From Ammoniphilus oxalaticus (lineage in GTDB: Bacteria; Bacillota; Bacilli; Aneurinibacillales; RAOX-1), in the NCBI RefSeq assembly GCF_003609605.1, contig NZ_MCHY01000009.1, forward strand, positions 365,058 through 429,057: 64,000 nucleotides of DNA. The letters run 5' to 3'. Under the pieces are notes generated by a model. It was not told the DNA's origin. It saw only the letters and a program-made list of their open reading frames with translations, and made no database searches. The position numbers and the translations under genes are program-made. Within the stretch, counting starts at the first letter, position 1; every line of letters begins with the position of its first letter. Positions 1,570 through 29,071 of this stretch are shown piece by piece.

Positions 1570-1713
1570 GTATACTGAATTGAATACAAGTATACAGGAT
1601 GTACACAACCGTATACGTTAGAGTAAACAAGTGTACAGTTGTGTATACTTGTTGATTTAACAATATGTGTACCATTTTGTAGACGAATATACTAAAATAG
1701 TAAACATGTTTAC
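1570..1713 (+). repeat. parC/centromere-like cluster of GTATAC-type boxes
   Basis: This 302-base gap between the DUF4317 gene and the parM-like gene holds about eleven variants of a GTRTAC hexamer. They start near 1570, 1590, 1601, 1611, 1623, 1631, 1643, 1667, 1687, 1700 and 1708. Most steps are 8-13 bases, about one helical turn, or 20-24, about two turns. The last two boxes form the perfect 14-base palindrome GTAAACATGTTTAC (1700-1713). Phased short repeats directly upstream of an actin-like ATPase and its adaptor are what plasmid parC/alp centromeres look like. The site could also act as the operator for the operon. Confidence 0.7.
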
Positions 1714-1807
1714 ATTTAGTAATAGAGACAAAAGTTGGATGGACCAATCAATAGAAATTAGGTAACATCTTACTTAAATTACCACGTTGAGAGGAATGGT
1801 TTAGTTA

Positions 1808-2989
1808 ATGAGTACTCGAATTGCGGCAGTCGATGTAGGAAATGATTCACTAAAGGCTATTTTTGGGAAGATGGATTCAGAAGTAAATATTCCAAACGTG
1901 GTGGCGATTGATGTTGCAGATCGTCCTGTAATCGGAATAGAAGAGTTGGATAATCAAAATCCTTTTGAAGGGATTCACGTTCGTCTGCATTCACCAGCTT
2001 TAATGAATAATAATGTGATCTATCGTGTGGGGCACTTGGCGACAAGGGCTGATAACTCGACTGAATTAGATCCCGGCAGCAATAAGTCCGAAGAAGATCA
2101 GACAATTGTAATGCTGCTAACTTCTATTGCGTTAGATGCGGTTCGCGATGAGAATCGACATCTTTTTAAGCGGGCTAACAATGTTATTGAGGCTACGTAT
2201 ACGCTAGGCACAGGGCTTCCATTGCGGGAAGTGAAAGAAGGGCGAGATGTTGCTTACCGATCTAGTTTACTTGGCTCTGTGCACCAAGTAGAATTTTTAG
2301 TAACGCCGAAGTATCAAGGCTTAAAGGTAAATATTAAATTCGATGAGGTCAAGGTTTATCCGGAAGGGTTTGCCGCTTTCATTAATCTTGTAATGGACAA
2401 CGATTTAAATATTATCAATAAAGAACTGATCGATAAGAGAATTATTATTCAAGATATCGGCGGTTTGTCGACGGATATTGCGGTCATCGCTAATCGCAGG
2501 GTCGATGATGATAAGGCGCAAGGTTTTAACATTGGTGTTTCGGAATCCCTTGACTCAATTCGCGATGAAATTCGCACGAAACATGGTGTGGAATTAGATA
2601 GTCGACGTGATATCGTCGAAATCATTACAAAGAAAAATGATCGAAACCACATTATGGTGAAGGGAAGTCGAACGAGCGTTCACGATATTGTTGATCGTTT
2701 GCTGTTGGAATTGGCGAAGAAACAATATCGTCATTTGCGCAATGTTTGGCAAAGAAATTCTCAGACAGAGATTTGTTATTTTGTTGGCGGGGGCTCAATC
2801 GTTTTAAAGGATTATTTAAAAACCCTCAACAATAATTTAGACGGATACAACATTGACTTTTTTGAAGACGAAAAAGAAAGCATCTGGATGATGGCGAATG
2901 CTTACTACAAGTTAATTGCTGATTTTGCTAGAAAGAATCAAAAGCCAACAAAGCCAAGTGACGATCAAAAAGCAGCTAGCTCTAAATAG
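1808..2989 (+). CDS. ParM/Alp-like actin-type segregation ATPase
   Basis: This 393-residue protein has the actin/ParM fold signature: phosphate-1 loop AAVDVGNDSLKA (residues about 6-17), phosphate-2 motif DIGGLSTDI (about 217-225), and a C-terminal adenosine motif FVGGGSIVL (about 323). Members polymerise on ATP into filaments that push DNA apart once bound to an adaptor-centromere complex. The gene lies 95 bases after the phased-repeat cluster and 11 bases before a small adaptor-like gene, the classical parC-parM-parR order. The setting looks chromosomal. Members of this family are best known from plasmids and phages. I judge the family call as strong; the biological cargo is unknown. Confidence 0.88.
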   Translation: MSTRIAAVDVGNDSLKAIFGKMDSEVNIPNVVAIDVADRPVIGIEELDNQNPFEGIHVRLHSPALMNNNVIYRVGHLATRADNSTELDPGSNKSEEDQTIVMLLTSIALDAVRDENRHLFKRANNVIEATYTLGTGLPLREVKEGRDVAYRSSLLGSVHQVEFLVTPKYQGLKVNIKFDEVKVYPEGFAAFINLVMDNDLNIINKELIDKRIIIQDIGGLSTDIAVIANRRVDDDKAQGFNIGVSESLDSIRDEIRTKHGVELDSRRDIVEIITKKNDRNHIMVKGSRTSVHDIVDRLLLELAKKQYRHLRNVWQRNSQTEICYFVGGGSIVLKDYLKTLNNNLDGYNIDFFEDEKESIWMMANAYYKLIADFARKNQKPTKPSDDQKAASSK

Positions 2990-3000
2990 GGTGATTTTAC

Positions 3001-3564
3001 ATGAAGGAAGTAGAAATAAAAAGAGGACAACCGATTACGTTCCGAGTTCCCTCTGATACGCCTGATCATATTTTAAAACACTTAGGTCATTTGAAGAAGA
3101 CGGAAAAAAGGAACTTCTCCAGTAAAATTGCTGAATTTGTGTTGAATGGGGTCAGTGATTCGAAATCAAAGCAAAGGGAAACGTTGACAATCGTCTTGCC
3201 AAAAGGTTTAAGCAAAACGCAGCGCGATTGGATCAAGCATGAACATTCGGAAGCTTTATTAGGGAGTATTGTTTATCAATTGTTGGCGGACCCTGTACGG
3301 GCTGCCTCGCTTTTAGCAACACTTAATAGTAGAGCGCTAGATATCGATGAGGCGCTTTACCTTCAGGAAGAAACCGTAAATCATGAGCCGATACCTGAAA
3401 CGGTAAAATTGGAAGAGCAGCAAATTGAGGAACGATTGGATGATGATTTAGACAGCTTCAACTGGGAAACAGCAACAAAGGCTGATTCGGATCTCGCAGA
3501 AGAAGATAAAGTGGAAGACTTGGATGATTTACTTGGCGATTTTCTAGCGCAAATGAATAAGTAA
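3001..3564 (+). CDS. small ParR-like adaptor of the actin-type partition operon
   Basis: This 187-residue protein starts 11 bases after the ParM-like gene behind a GGTGATTTTAC leader, so the two are surely co-transcribed. Residues 10-50 (ITFRVPSDTPDHILKHLGHL, then SSKIAEFVLNGV) have the strand plus two-helix spacing of a ribbon-helix-helix DNA-binding domain. A second basic region follows (KGLSKTQRDWIKHEH, about 77-91). The last 50 residues are very acidic and end in a hydrophobic peptide (DDLLGDFLAQMNK), as in adaptors whose C-terminus binds the filament. Sequence similarity to known ParR is not obvious by eye, so the call rests on position, size and layout. Confidence 0.65.
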   Translation: MKEVEIKRGQPITFRVPSDTPDHILKHLGHLKKTEKRNFSSKIAEFVLNGVSDSKSKQRETLTIVLPKGLSKTQRDWIKHEHSEALLGSIVYQLLADPVRAASLLATLNSRALDIDEALYLQEETVNHEPIPETVKLEEQQIEERLDDDLDSFNWETATKADSDLAEEDKVEDLDDLLGDFLAQMNK

Positions 3565-3567
3565 AGG

Positions 3568-3585
3568 TTATCCACATGTGGATAA
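3568..3585 (+). promoter_or_regulatory. perfect inverted pair of DnaA boxes
   Basis: TTATCCACATGTGGATAA is the consensus DnaA 9-mer TTATCCACA (3568-3576) abutting its exact reverse complement TGTGGATAA (3577-3585). It starts 4 bases after the stop codon of the parR-like gene. It is followed by AAAAA rather than a T-run, so it is not itself a terminator. I noticed no other perfect copy of the 9-mer in the window. Confidence 0.75.
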
Positions 3586-3624
3586 AAAGGTTTTCTGTCA
3601 TAGGCAGGAAACCTTTTTATTTTT
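3583..3624 (+). terminator. rho-independent terminator of the parM-parR operon
   Basis: The stem AAAAAGGTTTTCTG / CAGGAAACCTTTTT encloses a short loop (TCATAGG) and runs into TTTTTATTTTT. Confidence 0.8.
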
Positions 3625-3667: not shown

Positions 3668-5035
3668 TTAAAGTAAAATTTCACTATATTTTGATATGAA
3701 CATCGTTGCAATTCCGAAATAAATAAGCAACGATAAAATGTCATTAAGCGTCGTGATCAGTGGACCTGAAGCAACAGCAGGGTCCACATTAAATTTATAC
3801 AAGACCAAGGGGATAATGGTTCCCGCTAAAGTTCCGATAATTAATGTAAGTAATAGCGAGCTACCGACAATGAGACCGATCACTTTACCCTTCCAAACAA
3901 CAGCGATAATGGAGATCATTATTGCGCATATAATTCCGATAATGATCCCAACCCAAAGTTCGCGAAGAATGAGTTTAAGTGATTCTTTAAAATCTAGATC
4001 CTTGGAGACGAGGCCGCGCACGACAACGGCGAGTGATTGCGTCCCAGTGTTTCCGGTCATACCTGCAATCATCGGCATAAAGAATGTAAGAGCGATCACT
4101 TTTTCAATGGTTGCAGAAAATCCGTCTATAATACTTCCGGAAACAAGTCCAATTAACAAAAGCAGAATTAACCAAGGCAGGCGTCGATAGGCGGCAACCC
4201 ATGGTTTTGTGTTGAAATCGATCGCTTTACCAGAAGCGGATAATTTCTCGATGTCTTCATTTGCTTCTTGAATGACGACATCAATAATGTCATCGACGGT
4301 GATAATCCCGACCAGATGATTATCATCTTCGACGACAGGCATAGCAACAAAATCATATCTCCGAATGAGTTTGGCAACCTCTTCCTGGTCTGTAAGCACA
4401 TCAACTTTAACAACACGGCTAAACATGATGTCTTCAATCTTATCGTACAAATCGGCGAGTAATAGATCTTTATAAGAAACAACGCCGACAAGTTTTTTAT
4501 CTTGATCGATTACGTAAAGGTAGTTCAGGTATTGCGCAAGTTCGGCGAAGTCTTTTAATTTATCAACTGCTTCTCGAACCGTGTAGTGCTCATCGATCCA
4601 TACGTATCGATTATTCATGATCCTTCCCGCCGTTTCCGATGGGTAGTTCATCAGGTTTTGAACAATCTCAGATTCTTCTTCTTTCATCCCCGATAAGAGT
4701 TCTTCAATCTTGTCGGGTTCAAGATCGGTCAGTAAATTAGCAAGGTCATCATTTTCCATCAAATCAAGGACTTCTGTCGTTTTTTCAATCCCTAATTTGT
4801 AGAGAATATCTAATTGCTCTTCTTTTTCAAGCTCATTAATAAAACCAGTTAGTTGCTCGAGCGAAATACTTAGTAGGAATTTACTTCTATGTTTAATCGG
4901 TAAATGGCGATATTGCTGCGCGATATCGTAAGGATGTAACTCATATAGAAGATCCTGGACCGTATTCTTTTTCCCTTCTTTTATCGCTTGAACGATGGCG
5001 AGGGTAATTTCATCTTCAGTCATTGCTAATGACAT
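3668..5035 (-). CDS. mgtE: magnesium transporter MgtE
   Basis: This 455-residue Mg2+ channel/transporter has the usual family order: a helical N domain (about 1-125), a CBS-domain pair (about 125-255), a plug helix, and five membrane helices with the conserved GMTGNTGTQSLAVVVRG pore segment. The CBS and N domains are known to sense cytosolic Mg2+ and gate the pore. I chose the start at 5035 (MSLAMTEDE) because AAAGGAGGCGACGAACTT precedes it. The longer reading frame to 5116 has no ribosome site and would add 27 atypical residues. No M-box magnesium riboswitch is apparent in the 240 bases upstream. Confidence 0.95.
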   Translation of the reverse strand: MSLAMTEDEITLAIVQAIKEGKKNTVQDLLYELHPYDIAQQYRHLPIKHRSKFLLSISLEQLTGFINELEKEEQLDILYKLGIEKTTEVLDLMENDDLANLLTDLEPDKIEELLSGMKEEESEIVQNLMNYPSETAGRIMNNRYVWIDEHYTVREAVDKLKDFAELAQYLNYLYVIDQDKKLVGVVSYKDLLLADLYDKIEDIMFSRVVKVDVLTDQEEVAKLIRRYDFVAMPVVEDDNHLVGIITVDDIIDVVIQEANEDIEKLSASGKAIDFNTKPWVAAYRRLPWLILLLLIGLVSGSIIDGFSATIEKVIALTFFMPMIAGMTGNTGTQSLAVVVRGLVSKDLDFKESLKLILRELWVGIIIGIICAIMISIIAVVWKGKVIGLIVGSSLLLTLIIGTLAGTIIPLVLYKFNVDPAVASGPLITTLNDILSLLIYFGIATMFISKYSEILL

Positions 5036-5227
5036 AAGTTCGTCGCCTCCTTTGCATGAAAAAACATGGTGATTCTCCCTTGTTATTATTCCCACAAATA
5101 CCGGAAGGGGAACCATTTTGGGACATGAATGACAATAATGTTCAATCCCTCACATTACATGATCTAATTGACTTTAGCAACAGCTATCCCCGTTTATTTT
5201 GTAAAATGTTAGTAAGTGACCAAAATA

Positions 5228-22686: not shown

Positions 22687-25437
22687 GTGAGAATGAAGAC
22701 GAAAAAAGTAACATCGATCATGCTGCTTGCTGTTTTATTGTTTACGACAATGATACCAACCTTTCCATCTATATCGGCAATTGAGCCGGATTTGCGGGAT
22801 GGTGAGTATACGATTGATTTTACATTCTTAAAGGATCAAACAGAAGAAGCTTCAGTTGTTAATGACTATGTTTATCAACCGGCTAACCTTGTCGTGGAAA
22901 ACGGGCAAATCGCGGTAGAGATGGATTTAAAGGATCAAGGTTGGATCCAATCTTTTGAAGTAAAAAATAAGCAAGGGTTTGCCGCTGCGGAAATAATCCG
23001 TGAGGATCGTGACGCCCTTCGTTTTTATGTGGATGATTTAACGAAGAAACTGAATGTTCGTACACAGGTGCGCGTAACGGGTATTCCTGGTTTTGAGTAT
23101 GACAATACATACAACGCGCAGATCGAATGGAATCTTGATCGTTTAACAGAAGTGAATGTGAGTGATCCAGAAGCTACGGAACCAGAAGAGGAAGATGAGG
23201 AATCTGAGGAACCAAACGTCTATGAGGATGGCGAATATACGATTCCGTTTCGGGCCTTACACGCAACCAAAGAAGCAGAATCTTCGATGAAGGACTGGTT
23301 GGTTAATCCGGCTAAGCTTGTCGTTAAAGATGGAAAGAATGAAGTATACATTACCGTTCAGGAAAAGCCAGGTCAGTATTTAACCGATATTCGACTGGAA
23401 AACAACGGCAAGATGGATTCTCAAGACATTATAAGTGTGGATGAAGCATCACTTCGACGTGTCATCAAGTTTGAAGTACCGAAACTTGGGACGATTAACG
23501 CTGAAGTAGATATGTTTGTAGAAAAGGCTAACTATCGAAACACGCAATCATTCAGAGTGGCTTTTGATACGGATGGGACCGAGCCGAGCGAGGATCCGAC
23601 AGAACCTGAACAGCCGACGGGCGAACAGGTGGATGTGACTGTGTGGAAAGATCGAACGAATGAACGATCTTCACTAGATAGCAATATAAAAAAACCAGTC
23701 TATTCCGAGGTGAAAGACGGTAAGAACTATATCACATTAACGCTGACGGATAGTAGTTCGGTCAAAGGATTTAAAACGGAACAGGCGAATGGTGAATTTG
23801 TTGAAGCGAGAGTGTTAAGCGAAGATGTGGAAGAGAATACGAAAGTGATTCAATTTGTCGTTCCAGATCTAACGAAAAAAGTAAACGCAAAACTTCATGT
23901 GTATATTCCAGCGATTGATTACGATAACGAGTACACGGTTCAACTGGAATTCAACACATCAGGGAAACCTGAGGAACCGATAGAGCCAGAGGACCCAAAA
24001 GACCCGGGCGTAAAACCAGGTAATCCTGGAACTAACCCAGGTTCAGGAGGGGGCGGTGGACCAGTCGGCGCGAAACGGTCATCCATTAATTTAACGATTT
24101 TACAAGCGGGATCAGGGGACGTGTCTGTGATGAATGGATATGTTCAAAATCCAGCCACCTTAATCGAAGAAAAGGGAAAGAACTATATCGAACTTACTCT
24201 TAAAAGTAGTAACTGGATTCAAGCGTTTAAAACACAACAATCAGGCGGGTACGTTGATGCGACAGTAGTAAGCAACGATGGGGATCGACGGGTTGTTCGA
24301 TTTGAAGTAGAGGATTTATCAAAAAAGTTAAATGCGACTACGCGGGTATATATCCCAGCTAGTGAGTTCCCAGGCGGTGTTGCTTATGATAACGAATATA
24401 GCGTTCAGATCGAATTTAATCGATTGGAAACAAATTCGCCTACGCCTCCAGGAGCAGGCGGGATGATCGATTCCAAAGCGAAAATCAGTGGGTCAAGCGG
24501 TGGGAAGTTTGAAGCGGATGGGTTGACGATCACGTTCCCAGCCGGTTCATTTTCGGGTGATTTCAACGTCACCGCGAAGAAAGTATCGGATGTAGATCAG
24601 CTTGCGTTACCTAAAAACATGAGTTATGTCAGTGATGTGCTAGAGATTGAAAAGGACCAGATGGGAGACTTCACAAAGCCGATGACGATGACGTTTGCCT
24701 TTGATCCTAATAAGGTAAATGATCAAGCGCAAAGATTAGGAATCTACTGGCTGAATGAAGAAACGAAGGAGTGGATCAAGCTTGACCAGATCAAAGTTGA
24801 TCTCAAAAAAGGGGAAATTAGCGGTGAGATTGATCATTTCACAAAATTCGCGGTATTAGCGGTTGACGCGTCAAAAGAAGAAGTTGAATTGGAAGTAGAA
24901 GCGGAGGAAGAGGAAGAGATCTTCTTTACGGATGTGAACGGCCATTGGGCGAAACAATCCATCTATACGCTTGCTGAACAGGGCGCGTTAAAGGGATATC
25001 CCGACGGTCGTTTTAAACCAAACTATTCAATTACAAGAGCGGAGTTTACGACAGCTTTAGTCAAGGCGATGGGGCTCGATGTGATTCAAGGAACAAAGTT
25101 CATTGACACGAAAGATCATTGGGCGAATGACTATATTATGACAGCTGAAGTGCACGGCATTGTTAATGGGTACAATGAGAACTATTTTGGCCCGAATGAT
25201 TCCGTGACACGTGAGCAGATGGCGCAGATGATCGTATGGGCAAAGCAAATCAAGTCTACCGAAGGTCATGCAATCTCGTTCCAGGATGCGCATCAGATTG
25301 CTAGTTGGGCGCATGATGCAGTGAATAAGGTAGTTGCTGAAGGGATTATGAGCGGCTACCCAAATCAAACATTTCAACCAAAAGGACAAGCAACGAGAGC
25401 AGAAGCAGCAACGGTAATTGTAAAGGCATTACATTAA
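22687..25437 (+). CDS. S-layer-anchored haem-capture protein with four NEAT and three SLH domains
   Basis: This 916-residue exported protein has a signal peptide (ending ISAI), NEAT1 (about 36-155), NEAT2 (about 180-295), NEAT3 (about 313-425), a Pro/Gly linker, NEAT4 (about 458-580), a ZU5-like beta domain (about 600-730), an acidic spacer, and three SLH repeats (about 746-916). NEAT1, 3 and 4 keep the YDNxY haem tyrosine pair; NEAT2 has YRNTQ and so lacks the second tyrosine. Such proteins strip haem from host or environmental haemoproteins and pass it to IsdC-type proteins. The GTG start at 22687 is 8 bases after AAAGGAG. Confidence 0.93.
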   Translation: MRMKTKKVTSIMLLAVLLFTTMIPTFPSISAIEPDLRDGEYTIDFTFLKDQTEEASVVNDYVYQPANLVVENGQIAVEMDLKDQGWIQSFEVKNKQGFAAAEIIREDRDALRFYVDDLTKKLNVRTQVRVTGIPGFEYDNTYNAQIEWNLDRLTEVNVSDPEATEPEEEDEESEEPNVYEDGEYTIPFRALHATKEAESSMKDWLVNPAKLVVKDGKNEVYITVQEKPGQYLTDIRLENNGKMDSQDIISVDEASLRRVIKFEVPKLGTINAEVDMFVEKANYRNTQSFRVAFDTDGTEPSEDPTEPEQPTGEQVDVTVWKDRTNERSSLDSNIKKPVYSEVKDGKNYITLTLTDSSSVKGFKTEQANGEFVEARVLSEDVEENTKVIQFVVPDLTKKVNAKLHVYIPAIDYDNEYTVQLEFNTSGKPEEPIEPEDPKDPGVKPGNPGTNPGSGGGGGPVGAKRSSINLTILQAGSGDVSVMNGYVQNPATLIEEKGKNYIELTLKSSNWIQAFKTQQSGGYVDATVVSNDGDRRVVRFEVEDLSKKLNATTRVYIPASEFPGGVAYDNEYSVQIEFNRLETNSPTPPGAGGMIDSKAKISGSSGGKFEADGLTITFPAGSFSGDFNVTAKKVSDVDQLALPKNMSYVSDVLEIEKDQMGDFTKPMTMTFAFDPNKVNDQAQRLGIYWLNEETKEWIKLDQIKVDLKKGEISGEIDHFTKFAVLAVDASKEEVELEVEAEEEEEIFFTDVNGHWAKQSIYTLAEQGALKGYPDGRFKPNYSITRAEFTTALVKAMGLDVIQGTKFIDTKDHWANDYIMTAEVHGIVNGYNENYFGPNDSVTREQMAQMIVWAKQIKSTEGHAISFQDAHQIASWAHDAVNKVVAEGIMSGYPNQTFQPKGQATRAEAATVIVKALH

Positions 25438-25446
25438 CAAAAATAA

Positions 25447-25482
25447 GAGGATGGTTCGCGAACAAGGCCATCCTCTCTACCA
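25447..25482 (+). terminator. hairpin after the NEAT-SLH gene
   Basis: GAGGATGG pairs with CCATCCTC over a 13-base loop. The T-tract is weak (TCTACCATTTTT), so read-through into the next isd gene is likely. Confidence 0.55.
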
Positions 25483-25512
25483 TTTTTAATACAGTACAAG
25501 GGGAGATTATTT

Positions 25513-26379
25513 ATGATAAAAAAGCTAAATCCGATTCATGCATCGCTCTTAGCGGGTGTGCTTTGTATCCTGTGCTTTATGACATCCCATGTAAAGGCTA
25601 TCACGCAACTGGCCAACGGAAGTTATTCGATTCAATTAAAAGCATTAAAAGAGAACAGCTCGGAAGAATCACGTGTTCAACAATCGATTGAACCGAACGG
25701 AGAACTGAAGGTAAAAGACGGGAAGGCAGTAGCGTCGATCACGATGAAGGACAGCTCAGATATTACCCATTTTAAAGTGGAACAGCAAGGCGCAATGAGA
25801 GATGTGAAAGTCATTGAATCAAATGCGGAAAATAATACACGCGTGGTGGAATTTGAAGTGACGGATATTACCCAACCAGTTAAAGCGTGGGTAGATATCT
25901 ACATTGAGCTGCCCGGATTAACATATGACCAAGATTACACCATTCAATTAAAATTTGATCCGAATAGTTTACGAAAGATAGCCTCTTCAGCAGCGACAGA
26001 GGGGACCTCGATGAATCTATTGCTTTATCTATTTAATAAAGAGGCCTTTTCAAACGGTGTCGCTTTTCAACTATCGGAAGCTCCGTATTTAAAAAATGAC
26101 TATACGATGGTTCCTGCCAGATTTATTAGTGAAAATTTAGGGGCGCAAGTAACGTGGGATGATCAGAGCAAAGTCGTTTCGATTGAGCGCGATCATCACA
26201 TGATTCAGATGAAAAACGGGAGCTCGCAGGTTACGGTTAACGGGACTGTAGTTACAGTGGACACAGCCATAGAGATTAAAAATGGGTCCACATTTGTTCC
26301 TCTCCGTTTTATAGCAGAACAACTGGGAGCGGAAGTGAAATGGGATGCGAATCAAAAGAGTATTGCGATCGTCAGGTAA
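25513..26379 (+). CDS. secreted NEAT plus stalk-domain protein
   Basis: This 288-residue exported protein combines one NEAT domain (about 33-152, haem pattern YDQDY) with a C-terminal copper-amine-oxidase-N stalk domain (about 180-288, with MVPARFISENLGAQVTWDD and FVPLRFIAEQLGAEVKWD). It has no sorting signal or SLH repeat, so the stalk domain may hold it to the wall, or it may be a shed haemophore. It is followed five bases later by the isdE-like gene. The ribosome site is AAGGGGAGATTATTT. Confidence 0.9.
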   Translation: MIKKLNPIHASLLAGVLCILCFMTSHVKAITQLANGSYSIQLKALKENSSEESRVQQSIEPNGELKVKDGKAVASITMKDSSDITHFKVEQQGAMRDVKVIESNAENNTRVVEFEVTDITQPVKAWVDIYIELPGLTYDQDYTIQLKFDPNSLRKIASSAATEGTSMNLLLYLFNKEAFSNGVAFQLSEAPYLKNDYTMVPARFISENLGAQVTWDDQSKVVSIERDHHMIQMKNGSSQVTVNGTVVTVDTAIEIKNGSTFVPLRFIAEQLGAEVKWDANQKSIAIVR

Positions 26380-26384
26380 GAACG

Positions 26385-27269
26385 ATGTTAAAAATAAAGC
26401 GTAAAACGCTTGCGCTAAGTATTCCTTTATTGCTTGGATTGATGATCGGTTGTTCATCTGAACAACCAGCGGCCCCGACTGCGGTAGACGGCGCCGATGA
26501 ACATCGGATTGTATCGACAACAGTTGCTTTCACGGAGATCATGGATGTGTTGGAGTTGGATCTCGTTGGGATTCCGACGAGCTCTAAGCCGCTGCCGCCA
26601 AGATACGATGGGATTACGGAGGTCGGTTTTGTAAAAAATCCTGATTTAGAAGTAATCAAGTGGTTAAAACCTACCGAAGTCTTGTCCGTCTCTACGCTAG
26701 AATATGATTTAAAGCCAATTTTTGGAAGCGCGGATATCAACGCAAATTTCTTAAATTTAGATCGAGTTGAAAATATGCAACAGACGATCAGAACAATGGG
26801 AGAGAAGTATGATCGTCCGCAACAAGCGGCTGATCTGGCGCAGAAAATTGATCAAAAGATCGGTGAGATTGAAAAACGAATTGAAGGAAAAGAGAAACCA
26901 ACGGTCTTGATATTACTAGGGATCCCCGGCAGTTATTTAGCAGCGACAGAACATTCATATTTGGGTGATTTGGCTCGCTTATGCGGTGGAATCAACATCT
27001 TAGCAGAGCAAGCAGTCGAATATGTGGCCCCGAATACCGAATATTTGCAAGAGAAAAACCCTGACATTATTTTAAGAGCGGCCCACGGGATGCCAGAACA
27101 AGTGGTAGAGATGTTTGAACAAGAATTTAAAGAAAATGATATTTGGAAGCATTTTGACGCAGTGAAACATGACCGTGTGTATGATTTAGAAGAAGAAATA
27201 TTTGGGACAACAGGCAGTCTGGAGGTCATCAAGGCGCTGGATGAAATGATGAACCTGTTATATCCGTAA
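26385..27269 (+). CDS. isdE: IsdE-like haem-binding lipoprotein of an ABC importer
   Basis: This 294-residue lipoprotein (lipobox LMIGC) has the FecB-type fold, with RIVSTTVAFTEIMDVLELDLVG at the start and HGMPEQVVEMFEQEFKENDIWK near the C-terminus. That C-terminal segment resembles the IsdE haem-ligand region. It differs clearly from the other substrate-binding protein in this locus. I chose the ATG at 26385, right after the preceding stop, with CAGGTAAG as a weak ribosome site. It would take haem from the NEAT proteins and hand it to the permease that follows. Confidence 0.9.
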   Translation: MLKIKRKTLALSIPLLLGLMIGCSSEQPAAPTAVDGADEHRIVSTTVAFTEIMDVLELDLVGIPTSSKPLPPRYDGITEVGFVKNPDLEVIKWLKPTEVLSVSTLEYDLKPIFGSADINANFLNLDRVENMQQTIRTMGEKYDRPQQAADLAQKIDQKIGEIEKRIEGKEKPTVLILLGIPGSYLAATEHSYLGDLARLCGGINILAEQAVEYVAPNTEYLQEKNPDIILRAAHGMPEQVVEMFEQEFKENDIWKHFDAVKHDRVYDLEEEIFGTTGSLEVIKALDEMMNLLYP

Positions 27270-27294
27270 ACAACTAAACAAAGGGCGTTACAAC

Positions 27295-28272
27295 ATGAAA
27301 AGAGGATTTTGGAGTTTTTTCATTGTAATTATTTTAACGATTATTGTGTTTGTCTCTTCTGCCGCTTCTGGTAGTTTAGAAGTTACGGTGGGGGAATTGG
27401 TCAAAGGGCTGATCACGGGAGATAACGAAAAGGTGAATATCATCAAAGATCTACGATTTCCACGGTTAATTGTAGCTTTGGTGACTGGGGCAGCGTTAGC
27501 GGTGTCAGGTGTACTCTTGCAAGCGGTTATGAAGAATCCACTGGCTGAAGCTGGGATCATTGGGATTTCAGCCGGGGGAAGATTTTTATTTCTACTTGTG
27601 ATGGGATTTTTCCCTCAACTGTTTTTTTGGACCCCTCTGTTTGCGTTTCTAGGTGGGGCGCTGGCCTGCTTTTTAGTATTTAGTCTTTCCTGGAAGTCAG
27701 GATTGAGCCCGTTACGCATTATTTTGGTAGGGATTGCGGTTAATGCGACCTTTACTGGCTTGAATCAATCGTTTATTTATTTTGTTGGTTCTTCAAGTAT
27801 GACGCATGCGACTGTCTCAAATTTTGCGATGAAAACGTGGGGTGAGGCCCAGGTGATGATGGTCTATGGTTTAGTCGGTTTAACCATATCTTTATTTTTG
27901 GCCACGTGGTGCAATCTGTTATCCCTTGAGGATAAAACAGCAAAAAACTTAGGGTTCAATGTTACCGTCATTCGATTGTTGATTTCGGCTGTGGCCGTGC
28001 TGCTAGCGGCAGTTACCGCAGCCATTGCTGGGGTGATTGCCTTTGTCGGCTTGCTGATCCCGCATATCGGTCGGATTCTTGTTGGAACCGATCACAAGGC
28101 GCTAATTCCGTTCTCGGCTTTGTCAGGGGCTCTTTTAATCTTATTGGCGGATACGATTGGAAGACTGATTCTTCCGCCGAATGACATTCCAGCATCGGTG
28201 ATGATAATGGTAATTGGCGGGCCGTTTTTGATATTCTTGCTTAGAAGGAGTGAGCGTTTTCATGGAAATTAA
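27295..28272 (+). CDS. isdF: IsdF-like FecCD haem permease
   Basis: This 325-residue permease has about nine membrane helices, with LRFPRLIVALVTGAALAVSGVL, MKNPLAEAGIIGISAGG and AFVGLLIPHIGR as the family motifs. The ribosome site is AAAGGGCGTTACAAC. It is the partner of the preceding IsdE-like lipoprotein and overlaps the following ATPase gene by about 11 bases. Confidence 0.92.
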   Translation: MKRGFWSFFIVIILTIIVFVSSAASGSLEVTVGELVKGLITGDNEKVNIIKDLRFPRLIVALVTGAALAVSGVLLQAVMKNPLAEAGIIGISAGGRFLFLLVMGFFPQLFFWTPLFAFLGGALACFLVFSLSWKSGLSPLRIILVGIAVNATFTGLNQSFIYFVGSSSMTHATVSNFAMKTWGEAQVMMVYGLVGLTISLFLATWCNLLSLEDKTAKNLGFNVTVIRLLISAVAVLLAAVTAAIAGVIAFVGLLIPHIGRILVGTDHKALIPFSALSGALLILLADTIGRLILPPNDIPASVMIMVIGGPFLIFLLRRSERFHGN

Positions 28273-29071
28273 AGAGATTAGCTTTTCATATGATGGCAAA
28301 ACTCCGTTATTAGAGATGGTTAGCGGTCAGATTCATACCGGTAAAATTACGACGATTATTGGGCCGAATGGGAGTGGAAAGTCGACATTACTTGGGATTA
28401 TGTCAAGAAACTACTTGCCGAATGCGGGAGAGGTGGTCTTAGACGGAAAGGCGATTTACCACTATAAAGCAAAGCATTTGGCAAAGAAAATCGCGGTTGT
28501 TCATCAACAAAATGAAGCGCCGATGGATATGACCGTTGAGAAATTAGTTGGCTTTGGACGATTGCCTCATCAACGGTTTCTCGCTCAACCGAGTGAAGCG
28601 GATGAACGGGCAATTGAGTGGGCGTTAGCGTGTACCAAGTTAACCGAAAAACGCCATCATCGCCTACAAGCATTGTCTGGGGGAGAGCGACAAAGGGTTT
28701 GGATTGCAATGTCTCTCGCTCAACGCGCGCCGATGCTCTTTTTGGATGAACCGACCACCTATTTAGATATCTATTATCAGTTGGAGATCTTGGAATTAAT
28801 TAAGCGTCTTAATCAGGAGCAAGGATTGACCATCGTGATGGTATTGCATGATATGAATCAAGCCATTCGGTATAGCGATCAGATTATGATTATGAAAGAG
28901 GGTCACATCGTGGCGAATGGCAACGCGGATGAGGTCATGACAGTGAGTCGCATTAAACAAATATACGGGGTGGATGTCGTCGTGCAAACGGACCCAAAGC
29001 ATGGTTTATACGTCGTTCCGCTAGGAATTGAGGAGGCTGAAGAACAGGGAAATGAAGCGACGGTTATCTAA
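28262..29071 (+). CDS. haem ABC importer ATPase
   Basis: This 269-residue FepC-class ATPase has Walker A GPNGSGKST (about 36), signature LSGGERQRVW (about 140), Walker B MLFLDEPTTYLDI and H-loop VLHDMNQAIRY. It is a paralogue of the ATPase encoded near 20 kb. Both GTG at 28250 and ATG at 28262 are possible. I prefer 28262, since AAGGAG is only one base before the GTG. It overlaps the sortase gene by 20 bases. Confidence 0.9.
   Translation: MEIKEISFSYDGKTPLLEMVSGQIHTGKITTIIGPNGSGKSTLLGIMSRNYLPNAGEVVLDGKAIYHYKAKHLAKKIAVVHQQNEAPMDMTVEKLVGFGRLPHQRFLAQPSEADERAIEWALACTKLTEKRHHRLQALSGGERQRVWIAMSLAQRAPMLFLDEPTTYLDIYYQLEILELIKRLNQEQGLTIVMVLHDMNQAIRYSDQIMIMKEGHIVANGNADEVMTVSRIKQIYGVDVVVQTDPKHGLYVVPLGIEEAEEQGNEATVI

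Follow-up and report, generated by a model that had tools for sequence, protein, structure and literature searches.

A conserved parC-parM-parR cassette close to the chromosomal replication origin in Ammoniphilus oxalaticus and other Bacillus-type bacteria

ParMRC systems have been implicated in plasmid segregation, and chromosomal ParMs have been described for Desulfitobacterium and Clostridium botulinum, with conserved chromosomal ParMs also mentioned for Bacillus and Moorella (Ali et al., J Biol Chem 2025, PMC12270681, main text). The same main text states that the role of chromosomal ParMs is unknown and that chromosome segregation is yet to be implicated; it describes no rule on where they lie with respect to the replication origin (oriC), its supplementary tables lying outside the scope of this comparison. 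Here, we describe a cassette of this kind in Ammoniphilus oxalaticus. The analysed window, a stretch of 64,000 nucleotides, corresponds to C9:365058-429057 of a 3.3-Mb genome (contig C9, 702,945 bp), and the cassette with its flanks comprises the following features, in window coordinates.

306-1505, gene of a DUF4317 protein (Pfam), left flank of the cassette
1570..1713, no strand assigned, parC-like centromere candidate with 11 GTNNAC boxes
1740..1768, + strand, sigma-A-type promoter candidate (TGGACC, 17 nt, TAACAT) between the array and parM
1808..2989, + strand, cParM, actin-like ATPase of the Alp7A/ParM family, 393 aa (Pfam, PHROG, AlphaFold2 model)
3001..3564, + strand, cParR, adaptor of 187 aa with an acidic tail, beginning 12 bases after parM
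3586..3620, + strand, possible intrinsic terminator 3' of parR (AAAAAGGTTT...AAACCTTTTT repeat with a T-rich tail; read by eye, not computed)
3668-5062, - strand, gene of an MgtE-type magnesium transporter (Pfam), right flank of the cassette

The phased GTRTAC boxes, the ParM-like ATPase and the acidic-tailed small adaptor named in the original prediction were all found. Since dnaA (C9:335042-336358) lies on the same contig, 30.5 kb upstream of the cassette, the cassette is chromosomal, and the prediction of a complete parC-parM-parR cassette on a chromosome is thereby supported; the accompanying claim that no replication initiator is nearby holds inside the window but not beyond it, given this dnaA. 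No mobile-element genes were detected among the scanned window proteins, in agreement with the claimed absence of transposase and phage genes, and no replicon or mobile genes were found beside the cassette, which is flanked by the DUF4317 and MgtE genes. Noc, Soj/ParA and Spo0J/ParB are encoded between dnaA and the cassette, together with two parS-like sites (C9:343481 and C9:345801); the genome has ParABS as well as the actin cassette. Given this coexistence of ParABS, Noc and parS, the cassette is not the sole origin segregator. Elsewhere in the window, positions 22687-29071 form a heme/iron uptake region with a multi-NEAT-domain protein (IsdC/IsdX2-like) and iron ABC transporter ATPases.

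cParM matches the Pfam models Alp7A_like_C (2.3e-35) and ALP_N (1.1e-8), both above cut-off, as well as the PHROG 'partition protein' (3e-42). Its AlphaFold2 model (pLDDT 75, pTM 0.73) aligns with ParMs overall at Z 21-33, the best matches being Alp7A (5ec0, Z 33), Dh-cParM1 (8x1i, Z 31.6) and BtParM (Z 30). No Pfam family was matched by cParR, nor was any matched consistently across 52 members of its family. The alignment of these 52 sequences revealed a strongly conserved N-terminal half and a C-terminal helix, likewise conserved and ending in LGDFLAQMNK, joined by a variable acidic linker; the invariant residues are R8, G9, F14, R15, P17, R37, N38, F39 and S40, and F181, M185 and N186. The N-terminal half follows a strand-helix-helix pattern (helices 22-34 and 39-58), and on this pattern alone we consider it a candidate ribbon-helix-helix; the fold was not confirmed, with no Pfam, PDB or fold match, a model of mean pLDDT only 66 and fold searches without meaningful return. 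A tandem ribbon-helix-helix was rejected, as the two halves did not align with each other in a profile-profile comparison. Plasmid ParRs possess a DNA-binding end and a ParM-binding end; by analogy, and with the fold unconfirmed, the N-terminal half and the C-terminal helix of cParR would be these ends, respectively. With a ParM-type ATPase of actin fold, an adjacent small adaptor gene and iterated centromere-like sites, the cassette meets three criteria for membership in type II ParMRC; the ribbon-helix-helix fold of the adaptor, its binding to the repeats and to ParM filaments, and nucleotide-dependent filament formation are presumed only.

Orthologues of cParM (71-86% identical) are present in dozens of genomes of the Bacillaceae, the Planococcaceae and the Ammoniphilus type, nearly all with an adaptor of 50-75% identity. 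A ParM relative is encoded in 437 candidate stretches of genome contigs, and the best 80 of these 437 (78-86% identical) stem from Bacillus-type genera, including Siminovitchia, Sporosarcina, Priestia, Rossellomorea, Neobacillus, Heyndrickxia, Metabacillus, Jeotgalibacillus, Lederbergia, Cytobacillus, Psychrobacillus, Peribacillus, Alkalihalophilus, Pontibacillus, Ureibacillus, Ammoniphilus and others. In an even class sample, 23 of 399 genomes carry a ParM relative of at least 73% identity, separated by a gap from the next relatives (at most 45%), and each of the 23 genomes checked has one close copy. The distribution is patchy: about 10 genomes of genus g76 were sampled and 4 carry the cassette, which was not found in the sampled B. 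subtilis-like genus g20. Hence, the cassette is dispensable in some lineages.

Where the cassette occurs, its composition is kept. A ParR match stands beside parM in 106 of 112 loci (median identity 60%; gap typically 6-16 bp, 12 bp here), and the order parC-parM-parR is maintained in about 100 orthologous loci. ParM and ParR are the only gene families recurring at the loci; a conserved immediate neighbourhood was rejected, since the neighbours differ between genera. The proposed check for the same locus in related genomes therefore has a divided outcome, as what is conserved is the placement with respect to the replication origin, not the immediate neighbours. In close pairs, dN/dS ranges from 0.005 to 0.05 for parM and from 0.04 to 0.2 for parR. 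Moreover, ParM and DnaA have similar median pairwise identities (82% and 84%), and the distance matrices of the two proteins correlate (Mantel r 0.69, 0/9999 permutations), a broad congruence that, judged from these comparisons, agrees with largely vertical inheritance accompanied by losses. The cassette did not insert recently. In one genome (G418:C1:339000-339309), the intact copy at 340042 is immediately preceded by two short fragments that share 66-68% identity with the N-terminus of parM, a possible partial duplication.

The cassette keeps to one side of the origin and close to it. In 37 genomes parM and dnaA were found on one contig; in every one of the 37, parM is located on the left arm (upstream of dnaA) and on the strand opposite to dnaA, so that it is transcribed away from the origin, at a distance of 30.5-280 kb (median 83 kb). 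Requiring both genes on one contig biases the set towards short distances. The 15 complete or single-scaffold genomes escape this bias, and in 15 of 15 parM is again on the left arm, 34-161 kb from dnaA. A rounded length was used for four genomes (G177, G201, G389 and G255), which affects only the distance in G177 (about 50 kb). The naive probability of such clustering at the origin would be about 1e-22 for the 15 genomes, which is no real P value because the genomes are related. As a position control we used distant chromosomal ParMs (at most 45% identity), and their positions are mixed: about 3 Mb from the origin in G178, 1.3 Mb in G235 and 400-550 kb in G217 and G307, with those of G387 (about 100 kb) and G204 (131 kb, other strand) also left of the origin.

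Positional constancy is not independent between related genomes, and vertical-like inheritance could preserve an ancestral position. The origin-left placement might accordingly reflect nothing but shared ancestry of a passively inherited gene without any role in DNA segregation. We find this barely plausible, since other genes of the region were not preserved, the distance varies between 30 and 280 kb with varying neighbours, and strong constraint acts on both the protein and its site. When five left arms of 200 kb are compared, they are collinear over the initial 31 kb (rnpA to rlmH) and scrambled beyond it; each arm holds 128-145 genes outside this conserved origin block, and among them cParM/cParR alone is kept (at least 50% identity) in at least 3 of the 4 other arms. 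Given this scrambling and selective retention, the origin-left position does not simply reflect conserved gene order. MgtE, the neighbour in A. oxalaticus, lies at scattered places in these genomes. In G177 (G177:C1:3239700-3247722), MgtE lies ~6.5 kb from parM, the sole other checked genome with MgtE near the cassette.

The 11 GTNNAC boxes of the array start at 1570, 1590, 1601, 1611, 1623, 1631, 1643, 1667, 1679, 1700 and 1708, mostly at a spacing of 8-12 or 20-24 bp, and 7 of the 11 are GTRTAC or its complement GTAYAC. With 10 boxes in 180 bp, the array is the sole dense box cluster in the 400 kb around the origin, where the runner-up has 3, and no further array copies were found within 400 kb of the origin. 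Across the upstream regions of 100 orthologous loci, GTATAC was counted 357 times against an expectation of 16, GTRTAC-type boxes reach 5.9 per locus versus 0.4 in dinucleotide shuffles, and the strict GTRTAC count reaches 4 in 82 of the 100 loci; the commonest spacings are 12, 20-22, 24, 32-33, 36 and 42-44 bp. Loci of the Heyndrickxia coagulans type have GTTTGC/GTTTAC boxes instead, so the array is kept despite drift of the box letters, as expected for a maintained binding site. Such drifted boxes were seen upstream of parM in L012, L061, L073, L082, L090 and L109 (Heyndrickxia/Weizmannia, B. methanolicus and Ureibacillus-type loci), and these loci offer a natural test of ParR-parC co-evolution. 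A sigma-A-like promoter between the array and parM is found at 87 of the 100 orthologous loci; shuffled sequences gave 17.

Repression of the operon by its own product is common among ParR-type proteins, which counts in favour of a repurposed cytoskeleton, i.e., an actin pair with a shape or cortical role like that of FcmB/FcmC, whose boxes would serve as an autoregulatory operator only. The CorM/CorR filament structure 9rmi is indeed among the structural matches of the cParM model, and FcmB/FcmC demonstrates that a chromosomal ParM/ParR pair with a shape role exists (PMC12645912). We nevertheless consider this quite unlikely, as about 10 boxes over 140 bp exceed what an operator needs, and a role in cell shape would predict conservation neither of the whole array nor of the location near the origin, both of which are observed. 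Moreover, membership in the FcmB family was ruled out by a score of 30.9 bits with model NF052678 against a cut-off of 300.

The best plasmid relative of cParM in PLSDB is 43.7% identical, with no copy above 44% identity among 72,556 plasmids; plasmid ParMs at 39-44% identity occur in the same genera as the chromosomal family, and the best phage relative is about 27% identical. One exception was noted on the overlapping IMG/VR contigs L205/L206 (IMGVR_UViG_3300037312_001617), where a ParM 78-82% identical to the chromosomal family (L206:10001-11143) adjoins conjugation genes (TcpC, VirB4-like AAA, replication-relaxation) and three GTATAC boxes. No recognisable ParR was found there within 21 kb, and this ParM may use a host adaptor in trans.

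It would have spoken against the original prediction had the cassette been found only on a recently integrated plasmid; instead, it is chromosomal and single-copy in many genera, is under strong purifying selection and has no close relative in PLSDB. Domestication of a plasmid module for a chromosomal role, one of the readings then proposed, remains an inference. A domesticated remnant could also have been kept to stabilise or exclude plasmids with related parC sites, and both the related plasmid ParMs in the same genera and the conjugation contig, which could rely on the host adaptor, are compatible with it. This is, in our opinion, very unlikely: with none of 72,556 plasmids carrying a close relative, it is improbable that such plasmids exerted selection over this span, and the origin-proximal rule would be left unexplained.

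Taking together the anatomy, conservation, chromosomal location and origin-proximal position that we observed, we postulate that the cassette is probably a chromosomal ParMRC (type II) system that acts on the origin region and supplements ParABS. Its placement on the same side of the origin, within ~280 kb, suggests that the machine moves or holds the chromosome's own origin. The binding of ParR to parC, the polymerisation of cParM and the action on the origin region are inferred. In the proposed mechanism, cParR would bind and coat the phased parC boxes upstream of the operon, and the C-terminal helix of the parC-bound protein would capture cParM filament ends. ATP-driven filament growth would then move or hold the origin-proximal left arm, and sister origins would be separated, or the origin region fixed in place, alongside Soj/Spo0J. 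For the stronger statement, that an actin-filament spindle segregates or positions the chromosomal origin region from a dedicated left-arm centromere across many Bacillus-type genera and beside ParABS, we see arguments in even balance. If true, a bacterial actin works on the host chromosome, which would explain why chromosomal ParMs are kept. Since the cassette is conserved, single-copy and origin-linked, and has its own centromere in culturable non-model Bacillus-type species, with Alkalihalophilus pseudofirmus OF4, Bacillus methanolicus PB1 and Heyndrickxia coagulans among the carriers, the question of chromosome segregation is directly testable.

The main variant of this explanation is a role in sporulation, in which, as the spore forms, the filament would pull the region left of the origin to the cell pole or anchor it there. 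We keep it as such because the cassette falls within the zone of RacA sites and prespore capture left of oriC: in B. subtilis, RacA sites lie mainly in the 250 kb left of oriC, and the prespore-captured DNA is centred left of oriC (PMC4949633). Furthermore, all 23 orthologue carriers of the 399-genome sample have spoIVA, as do 266 of the 399 genomes overall. This link is confounded by phylogeny, however, and the promoter is sigma-A-like rather than of a sporulation sigma type; a RacA-like match in 9 of the 23 carriers argues against a simple substitute for RacA. We regard the sporulation variant as unlikely. RacA substitution was rejected in its own right, as RacA-like genes in 9/23 carriers and 26/376 other genomes do not exclude the cassette mutually.

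Among the known systems, the RacA-ram and Soj-Spo0J-parS systems of B. subtilis act on the origin region but are not actin-based. Alp7A/Alp7R of the B. subtilis plasmid pLS20 supplies the top structural match of cParM (350 residues aligned) and its top Pfam model, but is plasmid-borne and only 18% identical when the structures are aligned. FcmB/FcmC and CorM/CorR of filamentous cyanobacteria are chromosomal ParM/ParR-type pairs too; FcmB/FcmC is needed for rod morphology (PMC12645912), whereas the A. oxalaticus cassette has a conserved centromere-like array and an origin-proximal position. Bt-cParMR of Bacillus tropicus is a chromosomal ParMR said, in the main text of PMC12270681, to be conserved in several Bacillus species, and whether it shares the orthologue group of our cassette is undetermined. 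The kind of system is therefore known; its deep multi-genus conservation with a centromere and a left-of-origin rule appears new, as judged from the open literature without the JBC supplements. Dh-cParMR-1 of Desulfitobacterium hafniense (8x1i) is, according to the main text of PMC12270681, likewise a chromosomal ParM with a downstream ParR, conserved within its host genus and of actin-like fold. Dh-cParM1 aligns with the cParM model over 347 residues at 14% identity, and an orthologous relationship was ruled out (phmmer E 0.74 to 8x1i). Unlike Dh-cParMR-1 as presented in that main text, the A. oxalaticus cassette has its array, its multi-genus range and its origin-left position documented.
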